Source: Anaeromonas gelatinilytica (lineage in GTDB: Bacteria > Bacillota > Clostridia > Tissierellales > SIT17). From it: a stretch of DNA of 41,012 bases. The notes beneath the pieces are model-generated. The model ran no database searches, had not been told where the DNA came from, and saw nothing but the letters and a program-made list of their open reading frames with translations. The stretch is from the NCBI RefSeq assembly GCF_016820635.1, contig NZ_WSFU01000129.1, positions 1-41,012 on the forward strand. Reading direction: 5' to 3'. Shown here in pieces: positions 1-3,990 of the stretch. Within the stretch, counting starts at the first letter, position 1. Each line of letters starts with the position of its first letter. Made by a program: the position numbers and the translations under genes.

Positions 1-121
1 TTGGAAACCTTATTTTTGGAACAGAAGCTATCTTCTTCTTTCATCAGGCGGAGCCCCTATTGAGACCATAAAAGAATATATTAAAAACCAAGAAACTCCT
101 GATACGGCAAACACCCTCTGA
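1..121 (+). pseudogene. C-terminal end of an IS200/IS605-family TnpA transposase (cut by window edge)
   Basis: The frame ending in TGA at 119-121 reads WKPYFWNRSYLLLSSGGAP and then an IETIKEYIKNQ-type helix. This matches the end of the small HUH (Y1) transposases of the IS200/IS605 family, where FWxRSY, SxGGAPxETxKxYI and a short hydrophilic tail are typical. Only about 40 codons lie in the window, so the catalytic HUH motif and tyrosine cannot be inspected, and whether the gene is intact to the left is unknown. A 16-bp hairpin overlaps the stop codon, as expected for the right end of such an element. The family moves as single-stranded DNA and leaves no terminal inverted repeats or target duplication. 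Assignment rests on these motifs alone. Confidence 0.75.
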
Positions 122-146
122 ATCGAAGATTTCAGAGGGTGTTTGC
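107..146. repeat. Perfect 16-bp inverted repeat (IS right-end hairpin and/or terminator)
   Basis: GCAAACACCCTCTGAA at 107-122 is exactly complementary to 131-146, with an 8-nt loop. It overlaps the TnpA stop codon and ends 15 bp before the erm stop codon. There is no T-tract on either side, so an IS end hairpin fits better than a classical terminator, although it may still stop erm transcripts. Confidence 0.7.
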
Positions 147-160
147 GCCTTAATGCATGG

Positions 161-1033
161 TCAATTACTGATAACACTTCGATGCCTTTTATCAATCTTT
201 TTTTGTTGAGATATTAATTTATTTGTAGCACCTTTTACTAATTGTTTCTTTTCTATAGAAACTCCTTTAATATAATACTCAAATAATCCAATCCACTGTT
301 CTAATTTTATTTCTGTGGGTCTCGCAGATATACCAAATTTAAATTGTTGAGATAATTTCTTAAATTGTTTATGAGTAAATATTTTTTTTAGTCTTTTTTT
401 AAGATCTTTTCCTTGTTGAGAAAATATATAAGAAATAAAATCAGAATACTCTATAAGATACTCTCTATTAATCAAATATTCTTGTCTTTTTTTTATCTTT
501 AATAGCACACTATCTACATTTGGTACAGGTATAAAGTCTGTTTTCTTAAGCCCATAAACAATTGATAATTCAAAATATGGTTTTATCATAAGCGATCTAA
601 GACATTCATTATTATATGGAAAACCTGCATACTTTTGTGCGGCTTCCTTTTGAATAATTAGATATGTCTCTTCAGGTGGATTATCTCTTGAAGTAATCTT
701 TGATAATATTTGTGCTGTTATATTATAAGGAATACTAGAAAATATTTTATACTTCTCTTTATATGGCAATTTATAATTTAAAAAATCTCCAAAAACCAAT
801 TCCACATTATCATAACTACTTAAACATATCTTTAAATTTTCATACAATTTCTTGTCATATTCTATAGCTATTACTTTTGAACATAATTTAGACAACTGTC
901 TTGTAATTATGCCTTTTCCTGGTCCTATTTCAAAAACTATATCATCAGAATCTATATTACTTGTTTTAATCAATTTTTCTACTAATCGATCACTCTTTAA
1001 AAAATTTTGTGTATATTTTAATTTTCTTTTCAT
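161..1033 (-). CDS. erm: Erm-type 23S rRNA (adenine-N6)-methyltransferase
   Basis: This 290-residue protein is a KsgA/Dim1/Erm-superfamily Rossmann methyltransferase. Visible motifs are QNFL (9-12), the SAM-binding motif I EIGPGKG (35-41), an acidic residue at Glu58, GDF near 82-84 and the catalytic motif IV SIPYNIT (100-106). Erm enzymes methylate A2058 of 23S rRNA and give resistance to macrolides, lincosamides and streptogramin B. A strong AAGGAG site sits 8 nt before the ATG. Two points favour Erm over the housekeeping KsgA: the upstream leader with an Arg-Leu-Arg peptide, and a basic C-terminal tail (about residues 260-290) as in ErmD-like enzymes. Oddities: motif IV begins with Ser where Erm and KsgA usually have Asn, and the protein is longer than the usual 245-260 residues. 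The subclass is not assigned. It lies next to an IS200-type remnant. Confidence 0.85.
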   Translation of the reverse strand: MKRKLKYTQNFLKSDRLVEKLIKTSNIDSDDIVFEIGPGKGIITRQLSKLCSKVIAIEYDKKLYENLKICLSSYDNVELVFGDFLNYKLPYKEKYKIFSSIPYNITAQILSKITSRDNPPEETYLIIQKEAAQKYAGFPYNNECLRSLMIKPYFELSIVYGLKKTDFIPVPNVDSVLLKIKKRQEYLINREYLIEYSDFISYIFSQQGKDLKKRLKKIFTHKQFKKLSQQFKFGISARPTEIKLEQWIGLFEYYIKGVSIEKKQLVKGATNKLISQQKKIDKRHRSVISN

Positions 1034-1052
1034 TAATCATTCTCCTTAATTT

Positions 1053-1149
1053 GCTATTTTAAATTTCTAAATAGCACGGATCATGACTATTCAAATTTCA
1101 TATTAAAAATTTTTATTTTTATTTGAAAAGGCTAGGTCACGAACCGTGC
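1053..1149 (-). promoter_or_regulatory. Attenuator fold between the erm leader peptide and erm
   Basis: On the minus strand the 14-nt segment 1149-1136 pairs with 1087-1074 with two mismatched positions; one of them can form a G-U pair in RNA. The fold is extended by an A/T stem (1121-1128 with 1090-1097). A competing small stem, GCTATTT/AAATAGC (1053-1059 with 1069-1075), shares the 3' arm and lies immediately before the erm ribosome site. Mutually exclusive stems placed directly after a stalling peptide are the hallmark of erm translational attenuation. I see no strong direct pairing to the AAGGAG itself, so the exact switch is inferred. Confidence 0.6.
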
Positions 1150-1150
1150 C

Positions 1151-1195
1151 TTATCCTCTCAATCTAATATAGAAAATACAACCATTTAATATCAT
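1151..1195 (-). CDS. Macrolide-type leader peptide MILNGCIFYIRLRG
   Basis: A 14-codon ORF with its own GGGAGG site (1203-1208) seven nt before the ATG. The peptide ends in Arg-Leu-Arg-Gly-stop. The +X+ motif (Arg/Lys-X-Arg/Lys) is the established macrolide-dependent ribosome stalling signal, and RLR occurs in the ErmD/ErmK and ErmX leaders. The downstream stems and erm start at 1033 fit drug-induced translation of erm. The ORF is too short to be supported by length; the support is the motif, ribosome site and position. Confidence 0.75.
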   Translation of the reverse strand: MILNGCIFYIRLRG

Positions 1196-1307
1196 ACAAA
1201 TACCTCCCATTTTCATTAGTCATATTCTTTGAAAACTAAATTTTTAATTACTACTTACTATATTTCCTGTATTTTTTTAATAAAATTTATCTCATTTTTT
1301 ACTCTAT

Positions 1308-1337
1308 AAAAAAATACACAGGCTGGCTACCTGTGTA
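1308..1337 (-). terminator. Intrinsic terminator in the erm leader (second)
   Basis: TACACAGG (1315-1322) pairs perfectly with CCTGTGTA (1330-1337) across a 7-nt loop. On the minus strand it is followed by seven T residues (1314-1308). It lies between the upstream leader peptide and the RLR leader peptide, so full-length erm mRNA started upstream must read through it. Confidence 0.75.
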
Positions 1338-1545
1338 TTGAATAATCGGAAAAATCATTAAAAATATAGAAGAAATCCCTATTTATATTTTTATAAATAT
1401 GCTTAAAAAATTCTAAAGAAATCTCTTCAACAAAACAACCCATAATATATTTTCATTAAGAGCTTTTTAAAAACTTTTAAATGTTACTTACAATTTCATG
1501 TATTCATTAAAAACATTGGCTTTTTCATTATATTTAAACACATAC

Positions 1546-1571
1546 AAAAAAAGGGTAGATTTGTCTATCCC
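1546..1571 (-). terminator. Intrinsic terminator in the erm leader (first)
   Basis: A stem formed by 1553-1559 and 1564-1571 with one bulge, followed on the minus strand by seven T residues (1552-1546). It is about 100 nt downstream of the first leader peptide. A further small hairpin, CTCTAC/GTAGAG (1638-1643 with 1650-1655), lies between them and could be part of an antitermination switch. Confidence 0.65.
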
Positions 1572-1673
1572 TCTTTAACATATTTATCTCTATCATTAAT
1601 AAGGTTTTCTTAAAAATAGGCAGACTAATCCCGACTACTCTACACACAAGTAGAGCCTTTAAACACTATTAAA

Positions 1674-1718
1674 TTAGTTATATAAAGTATAAAATCGAGA
1701 TCTAAATATTCCACACAT
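1674..1718 (-). CDS. Second, upstream leader peptide MCGIFRSRFYTLYN
   Basis: A 14-codon ORF with a GGAGGG site (1729-1734) ten nt before the ATG, placed directly behind a good promoter and followed by hairpins and a terminator with a T-tract. It contains Arg-Ser-Arg, again a +X+ arrangement. The layout of promoter, short peptide and terminator resembles transcriptional attenuators of ermK and of antibiotic-resistance ABC-F genes. Whether it serves erm, or is left from another resistance gene lost from this spot, cannot be told. Confidence 0.55.
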   Translation of the reverse strand: MCGIFRSRFYTLYN

Positions 1719-1753
1719 TTTTAAGCAACCCTCCATCCATTTTAAGTACTAAT

Positions 1754-1782
1754 ATGATACCATATATCTCTATTATTTACAA
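1754..1782 (-). promoter_or_regulatory. Predicted sigma-A promoter for the erm leader transcript
   Basis: On the minus strand TTGTAA (1782-1777), a 17-bp spacer and TATCAT (1759-1754) lie about 36 nt before the ATG of the first leader peptide. This is the best promoter match found upstream of erm. No comparably good promoter was seen between the second terminator and the RLR peptide. Confidence 0.55.
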
Positions 1783-1913
1783 ACACATTTAAATATTATA
1801 TACAAACATGATAAATCATAATGTATTGACACTAAAAATCTAACGACTTTACTAAAAAATATGAATAATATACCTATAAATTTGTAAAGATATTTTTAGG
1901 AGGTGTATTTAAA

Positions 1914-2393
1914 ATGACTATTAATCTTAATCAAAAAGAAAGAACACTTTTAGAAGATCAAAAGAGTCATGAAGAGATATGCATAAAAAAATATAATGAT
2001 TATGCAAATCAAGCTCAGGATCCACAACTTAAACAATTATTTAAAACATATGCAGGACAGGAGGAACAACATCTTAATACAATCAATCAGATTTTGTCTG
2101 GACAAATGCCAAATATGGGAGGACAACAAAGCCAACAACAAAATCAACAAGCAAATCCTCAAAGTTCTCAACAAAATGAAAGTACAGGCATGAATAGTCA
2201 AAAGGATGCTGATCTCTGTACTGATATACTAATGACAGAAAAGTATGTATCAGGTACATATGATACAGCAATTTTTGAATTTAGAGATGCAAATATACGT
2301 CAAACACTTAATCACATACAAAAAGAAGAACAACAACATGGTGAGGGTGTTTTCAACTATATGCAAAGCCATGGTATGTACAACATCCAATAA
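1914..2393 (+). CDS. CotF-like spore coat protein (ferritin-like coat F domain)
   Basis: A 159-residue soluble protein with an N-terminal helical segment (about 8-65: LLEDQKSHEEICIKKYNDYA, QEEQHLNTI), a Gln/Asn/Ser-rich linker (about 68-95) and a C-terminal helical segment (DADLCTDILMTEKYVSGTYD, QKEEQQHGEGVF). The paired helices with ExxH-type residues and the LMTEKYxSGxYDTAIFEF signature fit the coat F domain of spore coat proteins, a ferritin-like fold. It is expected in the spore coat. An AGGAGGTG site lies 9 nt upstream. The gene is monocistronic, faces away from erm and ends in a strong bidirectional terminator. No clear sporulation-sigma promoter could be picked out in the AT-rich upstream DNA. 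Confidence 0.75.
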   Translation: MTINLNQKERTLLEDQKSHEEICIKKYNDYANQAQDPQLKQLFKTYAGQEEQHLNTINQILSGQMPNMGGQQSQQQNQQANPQSSQQNESTGMNSQKDADLCTDILMTEKYVSGTYDTAIFEFRDANIRQTLNHIQKEEQQHGEGVFNYMQSHGMYNIQ

Positions 2394-2427
2394 TAAAACC
2401 TTTTAGAAATACTTATAATGAAATATA

Positions 2428-2486
2428 TAAAGTGCACCTTTAAAGATTAGATTAAATTCAATATCTAACCTTTTGAGTGCACTTTA
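2428..2486. terminator. Bidirectional terminator between convergent genes
   Basis: TAAAGTGCAC (2428-2437) pairs with GTGCACTTTA (2477-2486), and an inner stem (about 2442-2450 with 2464-2472) continues the helix. It lies between the convergent CotF-like gene and the L,D-transpeptidase gene. Confidence 0.75.
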
Positions 2487-2499
2487 CAATTTTAAACTA

Positions 2500-3990
2500 C
2501 TAATAACAAATAACAGGAGTCTCTGGTACAATATTATTATATATTGCCTTAGCTACATCATATGGACAATTTATACAACCATGTGAGCCATTTGTCTTAT
2601 ATATTTGGCCTCCAAATTGACTTCTCCAAGTAGCGTCATGAATTCCTATACCTCCATTAAAAGGCATCCAAAAGGTAACAGGAGAAGCATAATCATCTCC
2701 TCTTAATATAACATCCTTCACCTTATACTTTAACCTATAAATTCCTGGAGGTGTCGTATGGTTCTGACTTATATTACCTGTAACAATATCTCCTTGAGCT
2801 ATTAATGAACCATTTTTATAATACCATATATGCTGATTAGTTAAATCTATCTCGACATAAGTATTTCCAATATCATTTTTACCATGAACAAAAGCAGTTT
2901 GACTATATTCTGGATCCCTTGTTATCGTATTTCCATCTTCTATGGCTGAAATTAAATTTTCTGTTTCTTTAGTTTTATTAATATACCAGCCATAATCCCC
3001 ACCACCTATTCTTATTGTTTTTCCAGATGATGTAACAAAATTTCTCGTTTTACCTATTGTATCATAATTTTCAGAAAGTACATTTACATATTCTTTCACT
3101 TTTTCTTCATCAATTTTAACCTTAAAGTTCTTATCAACTTTAAGCCATTTATTTATTATAGAACCATCTAAAACTTCTTTTCCTTCTTCAAATGTATATA
3201 TTATTTTTGAAGATACATATCTATCAAGTGTCTTCTTAGTTTCTACAACTTTTTTAGAATTTGAAGTGTATTTAGGCTTTACATAACAATCTATTGATTC
3301 TAAATCTATTTCAGTTTCTCCACTAACTATTGAATCTGCTACATGAGAATATAAAATATCTTTATCTACTTTTGTTCCCAATACCTCATCTACTATTTCA
3401 TATTTATTATCTACATACTTTAAAGTAGCATTTTGAGGTTCAATTACATTATTACTATTAAAAAATGAGAGTTCATCTATTTGTTCTTTCAGTAATTTTT
3501 CATCATATGAAACTTCTACTATTTCTTTAGAATCCTTCCCATTAAAACATTCTAAAACCCATTTAAAAGGATTTTGATTATCTTTAAATTTTTCAAATTC
3601 TTTATCCGAACTATATTCTAATCCTATATCCTTTGCTTTTATTTCTTCAATATTACCTCCCCGTTCTTTTAATTTCAATGTATAAGACTTAAGCTGAGAC
3701 GACATTACCACTTTCACTTCTTCTACTGTTTGGCCTGAAACATCAATACCATTGATTTTAGTCCCAAAATAAAAATGATTCATGAAATATTTTACCATTC
3801 CAAAATAAATAATAATTAAAGTACAAAGAAAAATCATTATAGGTATAATAATTTTTTTATACTTTTTTATTGAACTTTCTTCTAGATTCTTTTCCAAATC
3901 CTCTTCTATTTTTTCTTCTTCTTTATCTATATCATCTCCTATTTTTTCTTCTGTTGTATTTTCAATCGGGTTATCTAATTCCTTATCCAT
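2500..3990 (-). CDS. Membrane-anchored L,D-transpeptidase (YkuD) with PG-binding module
   Basis: A 496-residue type II membrane protein. It has a Glu/Asp/Lys-rich cytoplasmic tail (1-45), one membrane segment (about 47-67), a large external region with VanW-type peptidoglycan-binding_4 features (FYFGTKINGIDVSGQTVEEV near 73-92), and a C-terminal YkuD domain (about 373-496). The catalytic motif is complete: IHD near 450 and SHGCIN at 469-474, with Cys472 as nucleophile. Such enzymes make 3-3 (L,D) peptidoglycan crosslinks and are carbapenem-sensitive but resistant to most other beta-lactams; they are common in clostridia. An AGAGGTGATG site precedes the ATG. It appears to be a single-gene unit. 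Confidence 0.9.
   Translation of the reverse strand: MDKELDNPIENTTEEKIGDDIDKEEEKIEEDLEKNLEESSIKKYKKIIIPIMIFLCTLIIIYFGMVKYFMNHFYFGTKINGIDVSGQTVEEVKVVMSSQLKSYTLKLKERGGNIEEIKAKDIGLEYSSDKEFEKFKDNQNPFKWVLECFNGKDSKEIVEVSYDEKLLKEQIDELSFFNSNNVIEPQNATLKYVDNKYEIVDEVLGTKVDKDILYSHVADSIVSGETEIDLESIDCYVKPKYTSNSKKVVETKKTLDRYVSSKIIYTFEEGKEVLDGSIINKWLKVDKNFKVKIDEEKVKEYVNVLSENYDTIGKTRNFVTSSGKTIRIGGGDYGWYINKTKETENLISAIEDGNTITRDPEYSQTAFVHGKNDIGNTYVEIDLTNQHIWYYKNGSLIAQGDIVTGNISQNHTTPPGIYRLKYKVKDVILRGDDYASPVTFWMPFNGGIGIHDATWRSQFGGQIYKTNGSHGCINCPYDVAKAIYNNIVPETPVICY

Follow-up and report, generated by a model that had tools for sequence, protein, structure and literature searches.

The erm gene of Anaeromonas gelatinilytica is probably controlled by two drug-responsive attenuators arranged in series, the first acting on transcription and the second on translation, each portable independently of the other. 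In the window (the whole stretch of DNA analyzed, 41,012 bases), a promoter, a leader peptide (P1), two terminator-like hairpins (T1 and T2), a second leader peptide (P2), a set of alternative stems, and erm follow one another on the minus strand. An earlier note on this DNA had described a promoter, two 14-aa ORFs, two T-tract terminators, an alternative-stem region, and erm, all of which were found at the claimed places. It interpreted the leader as transcription attenuation on top of translation attenuation with a series of two +x+ peptides, a prediction from sequence that fits the comparative evidence.

The erm gene (1033-161, minus strand) encodes a 290-aa 23S rRNA methyltransferase of the Erm family, which passed the NCBIfam Erm equivalog NF000499 with 237.5 bits (cut-off of 212). 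The leader promoter (1782-1754, minus strand) consists of TTGTAA, a 17-nt spacing, and the extended -10 element TGnTATCAT, corresponding to 9 of 12 matches with the TG present. It was not statistically special, as the pattern scan retrieved 19 promoter-like sites compared with a shuffle mean of 21. A similar promoter (TTGCAA-17-TGnTATTAT) with the same place, spacing, and TG was found in the leader of Sporosalibacterium faouarense (locus L001). Transcription would start near 1747, and the leader would then be about 715 nt long. Rfam gave no match at gathering for the window and none at E ≤ 1 for 1000-1800. At the contig edge (window 1-146), a long inverted repeat (about 146-108) was spotted by eye, and a short plus-strand frame there resembles what we take to be the end of an IS200-type transposase.

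P1 (1718-1674, minus strand) is the 14-aa peptide MCGIFRSRFYTLYN, which contains Arg-Ser-Arg and has the SD sequence GGAGGG, and P2 (1195-1151, minus strand) is the 14-aa peptide MILNGCIFYIRLRG with the SD sequence GGGAGG. Both passed a strict ORF filter (ATG, 6-40 aa, [RK]x[RK], and a strong SD) and were the only ORFs to do so on both strands of the 41,012 bases. Among 1000 dinucleotide shuffles of the leader, one such ORF was observed in 26 and two in none. Counterparts of P1 were found at the aligned place in L001 (MCGIFRFRFYTL), in the leader of an hflX gene of genome G040 (MRIRFRFYTLCN), and in that of Bacillus licheniformis erm(D) (MTHSMRLRFPTLNQ). The RLRG-stop end of P2 was found at the same place in L001, in the erm leader of genome G013 (L010), and in an hflX leader of Paraclostridium. 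The P2 codons of the window and L001 differ by five synonymous and three other changes with YIRLRG fixed, and those of the window and L010 by one synonymous and six other changes with RLRG fixed.

P1 and P2 have different sequences and carry the +x+ motif at different positions (residues 6-8 in P1 and 11-13 in P2), as would be expected if they answered different drugs or doses (x being Ser or Leu), in which case erm would need a drug that stalls ribosomes on both peptides, or the two ranges would be tuned separately. The RYR peptide of tlrB answers tylosin and not erythromycin, according to the available part of its description (PMC6851288), and the peptide also varies within the family of P1-like cassettes, where MIDILTLNR, without a +x+ motif, precedes an SDR gene. 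The residue x is not kept, as the P1 of Sporosalibacterium has RFR where that of the window has RSR, and we consider such a division of labor unlikely.

In the preferred reading, in which both peptides answer macrolide-type drugs in series, P1 serves the terminators. T1 (1576-1546, minus strand) and T2 (1339-1308, minus strand; AATACACAGGTAGCCAGCCTGTGTATT and a T run) were assigned as terminator-like from sequence and energy. The T1 hairpin (1576-1548) has a bulged stem of -10.6 kcal/mol and a T-tract at 1552-1546, and the T2 hairpin (1339-1313) has a clean stem of -14.4 kcal/mol and a T-run at 1314-1308. A terminator pattern scan of both strands of 1-3000 retrieved two sites (0.5 expected from shuffles), namely T2 and one within erm on the plus strand; T1, which has a bulged stem, was not among them.

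Segment A (strand 2; 1658-1623, minus strand) is common to an OFF and an ON pairing. In the OFF pairing (anti-antiterminator), strand 1 (1732-1693, minus strand), comprising the P1 ribosome site and the codons up to Arg-Ser-Arg, is predicted to pair with 1636-1601. In the ON pairing (antiterminator), segment A would form 33 pairs with strand 3 (1356-1320, minus strand), made up of some 20 nt followed by the 5' half of T2. When the window transcript was folded to its end at 1559, within the 5' half of T1, the OFF pairing appeared as four helices with probabilities of 0.52-0.99. Its duplex energy was -28.4 in the window compared with -14.5 ± 3.4 for shuffled segments (reached in 0 of 300) and -25.8 in L001 (2 of 300), and 29 of the 31 pairs are kept in L001. 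The ON duplex reached -43.4 kcal/mol in the window (shuffled, -16.2 ± 3.1; 0 of 300) and -29.8 in L001 (shuffled, -13.7 ± 3.0; 0 of 300). The segments for these shuffles were picked after the equilibrium fold; a sliding scan, which like the family partner scan described below is independent of the choice of partner, ranked the ON pairing first among all long-range pairings of the leader in both genomes. Of its 33 aligned pairs, 24 are kept between the window and L001 (16 unchanged, seven changed on one side, and one compensatory with changes on both sides).

In the equilibrium fold of L001, the antiterminator probability rose from about 0.07 in the free RNA to 0.83 with a stalled ribosome on P1. 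In the full-length fold of the window, it was already about 0.95 in the free RNA and 0.97-0.99 in the stalled state (two main helices). As the window leader thus prefers the antiterminator even without a ribosome, its OFF state must depend on the order of folding. T1 was present in each full-length state folded (probability of about 0.91). Segment A provides an alternative pairing that would disrupt T2. For T1, the candidate, in which T1 pairs with the 3' portion of segment A, was marginal: shuffles equaled it in 10 of 200 cases for the window, 6 of 200 for erm(D), and 65 of 200 for L001. In the nascent RNA of L001, the 3' half of T1 can pair with the P1 ribosome site (probability of 0.90 stalled and 0.75 free). 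The scheme can be refined accordingly in the model: the P1 antiterminator would act on T2, about 300 nt away, with T1 lying within the loop. A run of five T directly after segment A (window 1616-1612) is invariant in the 14 leaders of alignment A6 and is possibly a pause site; the window copy has no exact match to the TTNTTT NusG motif.

The second attenuator (1162-1034, minus strand) was defined from alignments and from model R1 of the P2 switch. Stem 1:2 surrounds the P2 stop codon, stem 2:3 joins 1149-1136 with 1087-1074, and stem 3:4 joins 1089-1069 with 1059-1034 and covers the erm SD (1047-1042). As in ermC-type translation attenuators, an ORF with an SD and a stall motif lies just upstream of erm, and three alternative stems are present, one of which sequesters the SD. 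In the window, L001, and L010, five of the six positions are paired in the core of stem 1:2; 13, 12, and 13 of the 14 positions in stem 2:3, respectively; and 6-7 of seven outer positions and all three SD positions in stem 3:4. The inner part of stem 3:4 is paired in 7, 4, and 2 of seven columns as aligned and is re-formed in the own fold of each genome. With a ribosome masked on P2, the probability of an unpaired SD changed from 0.57 to 0.62 in the window (0.87 with the ribosome edge 3 nt shorter), from 0.59 to 0.49 in L001, and from 0.50 to 0.50 in L010. Folding with a masked ribosome does not on its own predict the opening of the SD, and the second stage therefore rests on anatomy and conservation.

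An Erm protein search of 249 genomes of the order identified 14 with a match at E ≤ 1e-40, including the window's own. The closest enzyme found was that of S. faouarense (71% identical), whose leader consists of P1 (MCGIFRFRFYTL), T1, T2, P2 (MMFNGGIFYIRLRG), the stems, and erm. Between the two leaders, divergence is much greater in the T1-T2 and T2-P2 spacers than in P1, segment A, T1, T2, P2, or the stems. These two genomes are the only carriers of the tandem leader. The erm gene of G013 (63% identical Erm) has only P2 and the stems upstream, without P1. Among 248 genomes of the order, model R1 matched three, with erm downstream in every case, and model R2, built on the window and L001, also matched three, namely those two and G040, where the match precedes an HflX gene. 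In the Erm tree, the three enzymes with a P2 form one group (94/94), with those of the window and Sporosalibacterium together inside it (86/77).

Eight other erm genes of the order (L011-L013 and L017-L021) are preceded by a single P1-like peptide of another class, lying in a different RNA. Their MGIASMRIRNLVVK-like peptides had been considered as P1 cassettes, and this was rejected as R2 misses them. Their consensus structure contains one hairpin of the terminator type and another that sequesters the SD; 96.9% of its cells are paired, and eight pairs show changes on both sides (0 of 500 shuffles for each). A freed strand (GTGGATTC) can also form 8 bp with the anti-SD strand (GAATCCAC) in 96.9% of cells, a value reached by 63 of 500 shuffles. 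In these leaders, one peptide seems to do both jobs, so that the order appears to hold both one- and two-peptide solutions.

When the Erm search was widened to the class and the phylum (E ≤ 1e-60 and 1e-70), it yielded just two further enzymes, both 42% identical (L027 and L028). The ORF scan found nothing upstream of the first, and the second is preceded, at a distance of about 330-370 nt, by two weak +x+ ORFs that by eye lie inside another gene. Before another Erm of 42% identity (L014, genome G009), we noted the short peptide MCGIFRIRK, which starts with MCGIFRxR as P1 does; it lies 195 nt before the end of the examined stretch, and by eye a terminator-like hairpin follows. Single +x+ peptides (MLHSVRIRK and MTASIRLR) were also seen upstream of other distant erm genes of the order (L022 and L023).

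Outside the order, a P2-like leader (MMVICRGIFFLRLRG) was found before hflX on a plasmid of Paraclostridium bifermentans. R1 matched the Paraclostridium leaders with E values of 0.006 and 0.029, hardly or not at all better than that of a chance match (0.025), so the link to hflX rests on the peptide, on a blastn match to the G013 leader (94% over 34 nt, E 8e-5), and on arms seen by eye. The chance match itself (L042:3267-3375) spans a gene start and was dropped. In P. bifermentans NZ_CP094938.1 (L057:160-480), a mef-like MFS gene has a two-ORF leader in which ORF1 (MKNLYMIINKLNKTHITPTKTY), a terminator-like hairpin, ORF2 (MNAKQAVIIFGI), and P2-like stems were recognized by eye; the whole resembles a stacked leader that is independent of the others and lacks +x+ motifs.

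The folding results, with no switch at P2 in L001 and L010 and one in the window that depends on the assumed ribosome edge, would also suit a leader with a single regulatory stage, in which all control is transcriptional and exerted by P1, as in erm(K), and P2 and its stems either are a relic or serve only to load ribosomes. The erm(D) leader, where the SD directly follows T2 with no second peptide, agrees with this explanation. A relic would be expected to decay; yet RLRG, the stop codon, and the stem arms of P2 are kept in three genomes whose Erm proteins are 63-71% identical, and P2 stands alone before erm in G013 and, in diverged form, before hflX. We therefore regard a purely P1-driven control as improbable.

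The first attenuator belongs to a larger family than the second. R2, built on the two erm leaders only, matched the hflX leader of G040 with an E value of 2e-25 and that of B. licheniformis erm(D) (L045) with 2.7e-7, and it also matched leaders of msr(I)/rlm, mef(F), msr(G), mph, and SDR genes. The plasmid leaders had been reached by blastn with the window leader and then with a related Priestia leader (76% over 99 nt, E 2e-7, between the two), and 14 of the 25 plasmid records from the Priestia-led search were examined. Across 29 loci, R2 matched 17 (the window, L001, L037, and 14 of 15 plasmid loci, the exception being L044), with E values of only 0.05 for L053 and L054, and gave no match in L010, L014, the eight single-peptide leaders, or L057. 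The genes behind the 18 leaders of the family were erm (3: the window, L001, and B. licheniformis erm(D)), hflX (1), an rlmA-like methyltransferase gene followed by msr(I) (2), mef(F) or another MFS gene (4), macrolide phosphotransferase genes (4), msr(G) (2), and SDR genes (2), with L050/L051, L053/L054, and L055/L056 being near-copies.

The RNA of the P1 cassette is homologous to the leader of erm(D), with two T-tract hairpins (on sequence and energy) in both and with MCGIFRSRFYTLYN and MTHSMRLRFPTLNQ aligned at their +x+ peptides in A6, an alignment of 14 of the 18 leaders (L051 and L054-L056 left out). The RNAalifold consensus of these 14 keeps the stem between P1 and segment A and has both-sided changes at seven of 23 predicted pairs, just one of which falls within the P1-segment A helices. 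In a partner scan with steps of 2 nt for the observed sequences and 4 nt for the shuffles, which slightly favors the observed value, the downstream partner of segment A was matched by at most one of 60 shuffles in 15 of the 18 leaders; those not standing out were L050 (9 of 60), L051 (10 of 60), and L052 (6 of 60). The best partner in L044 is not a terminator hairpin.

The T2-side helix was inspected in 14 of the 18 leaders (L044, L051, L052, and L054 left out), and 12 were registered by hand in a table; L046, identical in its letters to L042, and L053, which falls out of register, were omitted. Pairing is seen at columns 1-7 in 10-12 of the 12 leaders and at column 8 in seven, and columns 1 and 5 hold both G-C and A-U pairs. 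A hairpin with a T run ends the module in the other inspected leaders except L037, the G040 locus, whose T2 hairpin has no T run. By script, a T-tract hairpin 37-47 nt after segment A was found in nine of 16 family leaders, including L001, L037, and erm(D); five had none (L042, L043, L046, L048, and L049), and the hairpin was unsuitable in L050 and L053. A 17-nt segment-A pattern gave two matches in viral contigs, two longer patterns gave none, and phage records gave no match.

Several genes behind these cassettes are of interest in themselves. The G040 cassette (L037:5656-5175) precedes an HflX gene, a candidate HflXr, and a second HflX (47%) is encoded elsewhere in that genome; in the genome of the window, no match to HflX was obtained at E ≤ 1e-30. 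Plasmids of Acinetobacter and Latilactobacillus carry erm(D)-type cassettes (L055:2191-2220 and L056:2171-2291) before an SDR-family oxidoreductase gene, and in L055 the RNA is kept with MIDILTLNR as the peptide, pointing to induction by a different drug and perhaps to a role of the SDR in resistance. On a Priestia plasmid (L042:3295-5678), genes for an RlmA-type (G745/G748) methyltransferase and msr(I) lie in a row behind an erm(D)-type leader.

The earlier note had proposed a comparison of homologues, with an upstream peptide belonging to a different resistance gene as the finding that would count against a series; the P1 cassette does precede hflX in G040, yet in the window and Sporosalibacterium only short spacers separate it from P2 and erm. 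That P1, T1, and T2 are the stranded leader of another resistance gene and that P2 and erm are transcribed from elsewhere is very improbable: the cassette does occur before hflX and many other genes, and promoter-like 9/12 sites lie before T2 (1471-1442) and inside P2 (1195-1166), though at the shuffle rate, but the T2-P2 spacers are about 110 nt (window) and 65 nt (Sporosalibacterium), that of the window holds no ORF of at least 60 aa and no minus-strand promoter with at least 9 of 12 matches, and the cassette is equally placed in two genera despite their diverged spacers.

For two attenuators in series, we infer drug-dependent stalling, actual termination, and the following order of events. 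Without drug, P1 would be fully translated, the P1 frame would pair with segment A, and T2 (and T1) would form and stop the polymerase. With a macrolide-type drug, a ribosome would stall at Arg-Ser-Arg and cover strand 1, leaving segment A free to capture the 5' half of T2 so that transcription goes on. On the read-through RNA, a second drug-bound ribosome would stall at the Arg-Leu-Arg of P2 and open stem 1:2, whereupon strand 2 would pair with strand 3 and the erm ribosome site would be released from stem 3:4. If this is true, the drug must persist after the first stall until a second ribosome reads P2, before Erm is made. As the two cassettes have separate distributions, the likeliest histories of the tandem are that an erm(K/D)-type cassette was placed upstream of a P2-controlled erm or that P1 was lost in G013.

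Methylation by Erm is costly, and the control of erm decides between silent and expressed resistance. That each switch is also found singly in front of other resistance genes suggests that such controls are assembled by bacteria from interchangeable parts. We lean towards the broader view that leader attenuators of the macrolide type are portable RNA modules, exchanged by recombination between resistance genes that are themselves unrelated, and that they can be stacked; the leader in the window would then be a two-checkpoint gate made of two unrelated cassettes. Stacked checkpoints of transcription and translation that move independently would illustrate how tight control can be built from modules. 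With a covariance model of the cassette family (erm, hflX, msr, mef, mph, rlm-like, and SDR genes), uncharacterized genes can be proposed as drug-response genes.

The two halves of the leader resemble different known systems. The ermC attenuator follows the scheme of arms 1:2, 2:3, and 3:4 with a leader peptide containing IFVI. P2 shares these arms with the ermC type, together with the 3' end of the peptide on arm 1 and the SD in arm 4, whereas in the window the peptide is of the RLR type and a transcription attenuator, which has a separate peptide, lies upstream. The first half shares with erm(K)/erm(D) of B. licheniformis a 14-aa +x+ peptide with an aligned tail (RLRFPTLNQ in erm(D) and RSRFYTLYN in P1), segment A, two terminators, and an antiterminator on T2. 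In contrast, erm(D) has its SD directly after T2 and no second peptide, and the ErmD methyltransferase is only remotely related to the Erm of the window, with a very long branch in the tree (partial sequence of 183 aa). For erm(K), the accessible text describes two adjacent terminators and a peptide, MTHSMRLR, required for induction, and mentions "one or two" leader peptides before erm genes (PMC4335068). The Listeria hflXr leader (rli80) has, in the portion of its description at hand, a 14-aa RLR ORF and the same logic of anti-antiterminator, antiterminator, and terminator as the P1 cassette, but with one peptide and another gene (PMC6310831).

The earlier note knew of no erm with two such leader peptides, a statement that needs narrowing, as two-peptide leaders and two-level attenuation are each known. 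Two leader peptides (ermBL and ermBL2) precede ermB as they do the erm of the window, and the parts of the source available describe ermB as under translational attenuation (PMC8274638). In mefA-msrD, two drug-sensing peptides (MefAL and MsrDL) lie in series and msrD is under dual control, but, as far as that text extends, each of the two stands before a gene of its own, and transcription is the level at which both act (PMC10314930). For two +x+ peptides in series, one per level, before one erm, no description was found among the titles and abstract openings listed from the open-licence literature, and the novelty accordingly lies in the serial combination. Both attenuation levels are combined on one leader with a single peptide or uORF in tlrB (yxjB) and vmlR of B. 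subtilis, according to excerpts of the reports (PMC6851288 and PMC9226507), whereas the window has two ORFs, each beside its own switch. The tandem leader thereby lets one ask why tlrB-like genes use one peptide for both levels and others use two.
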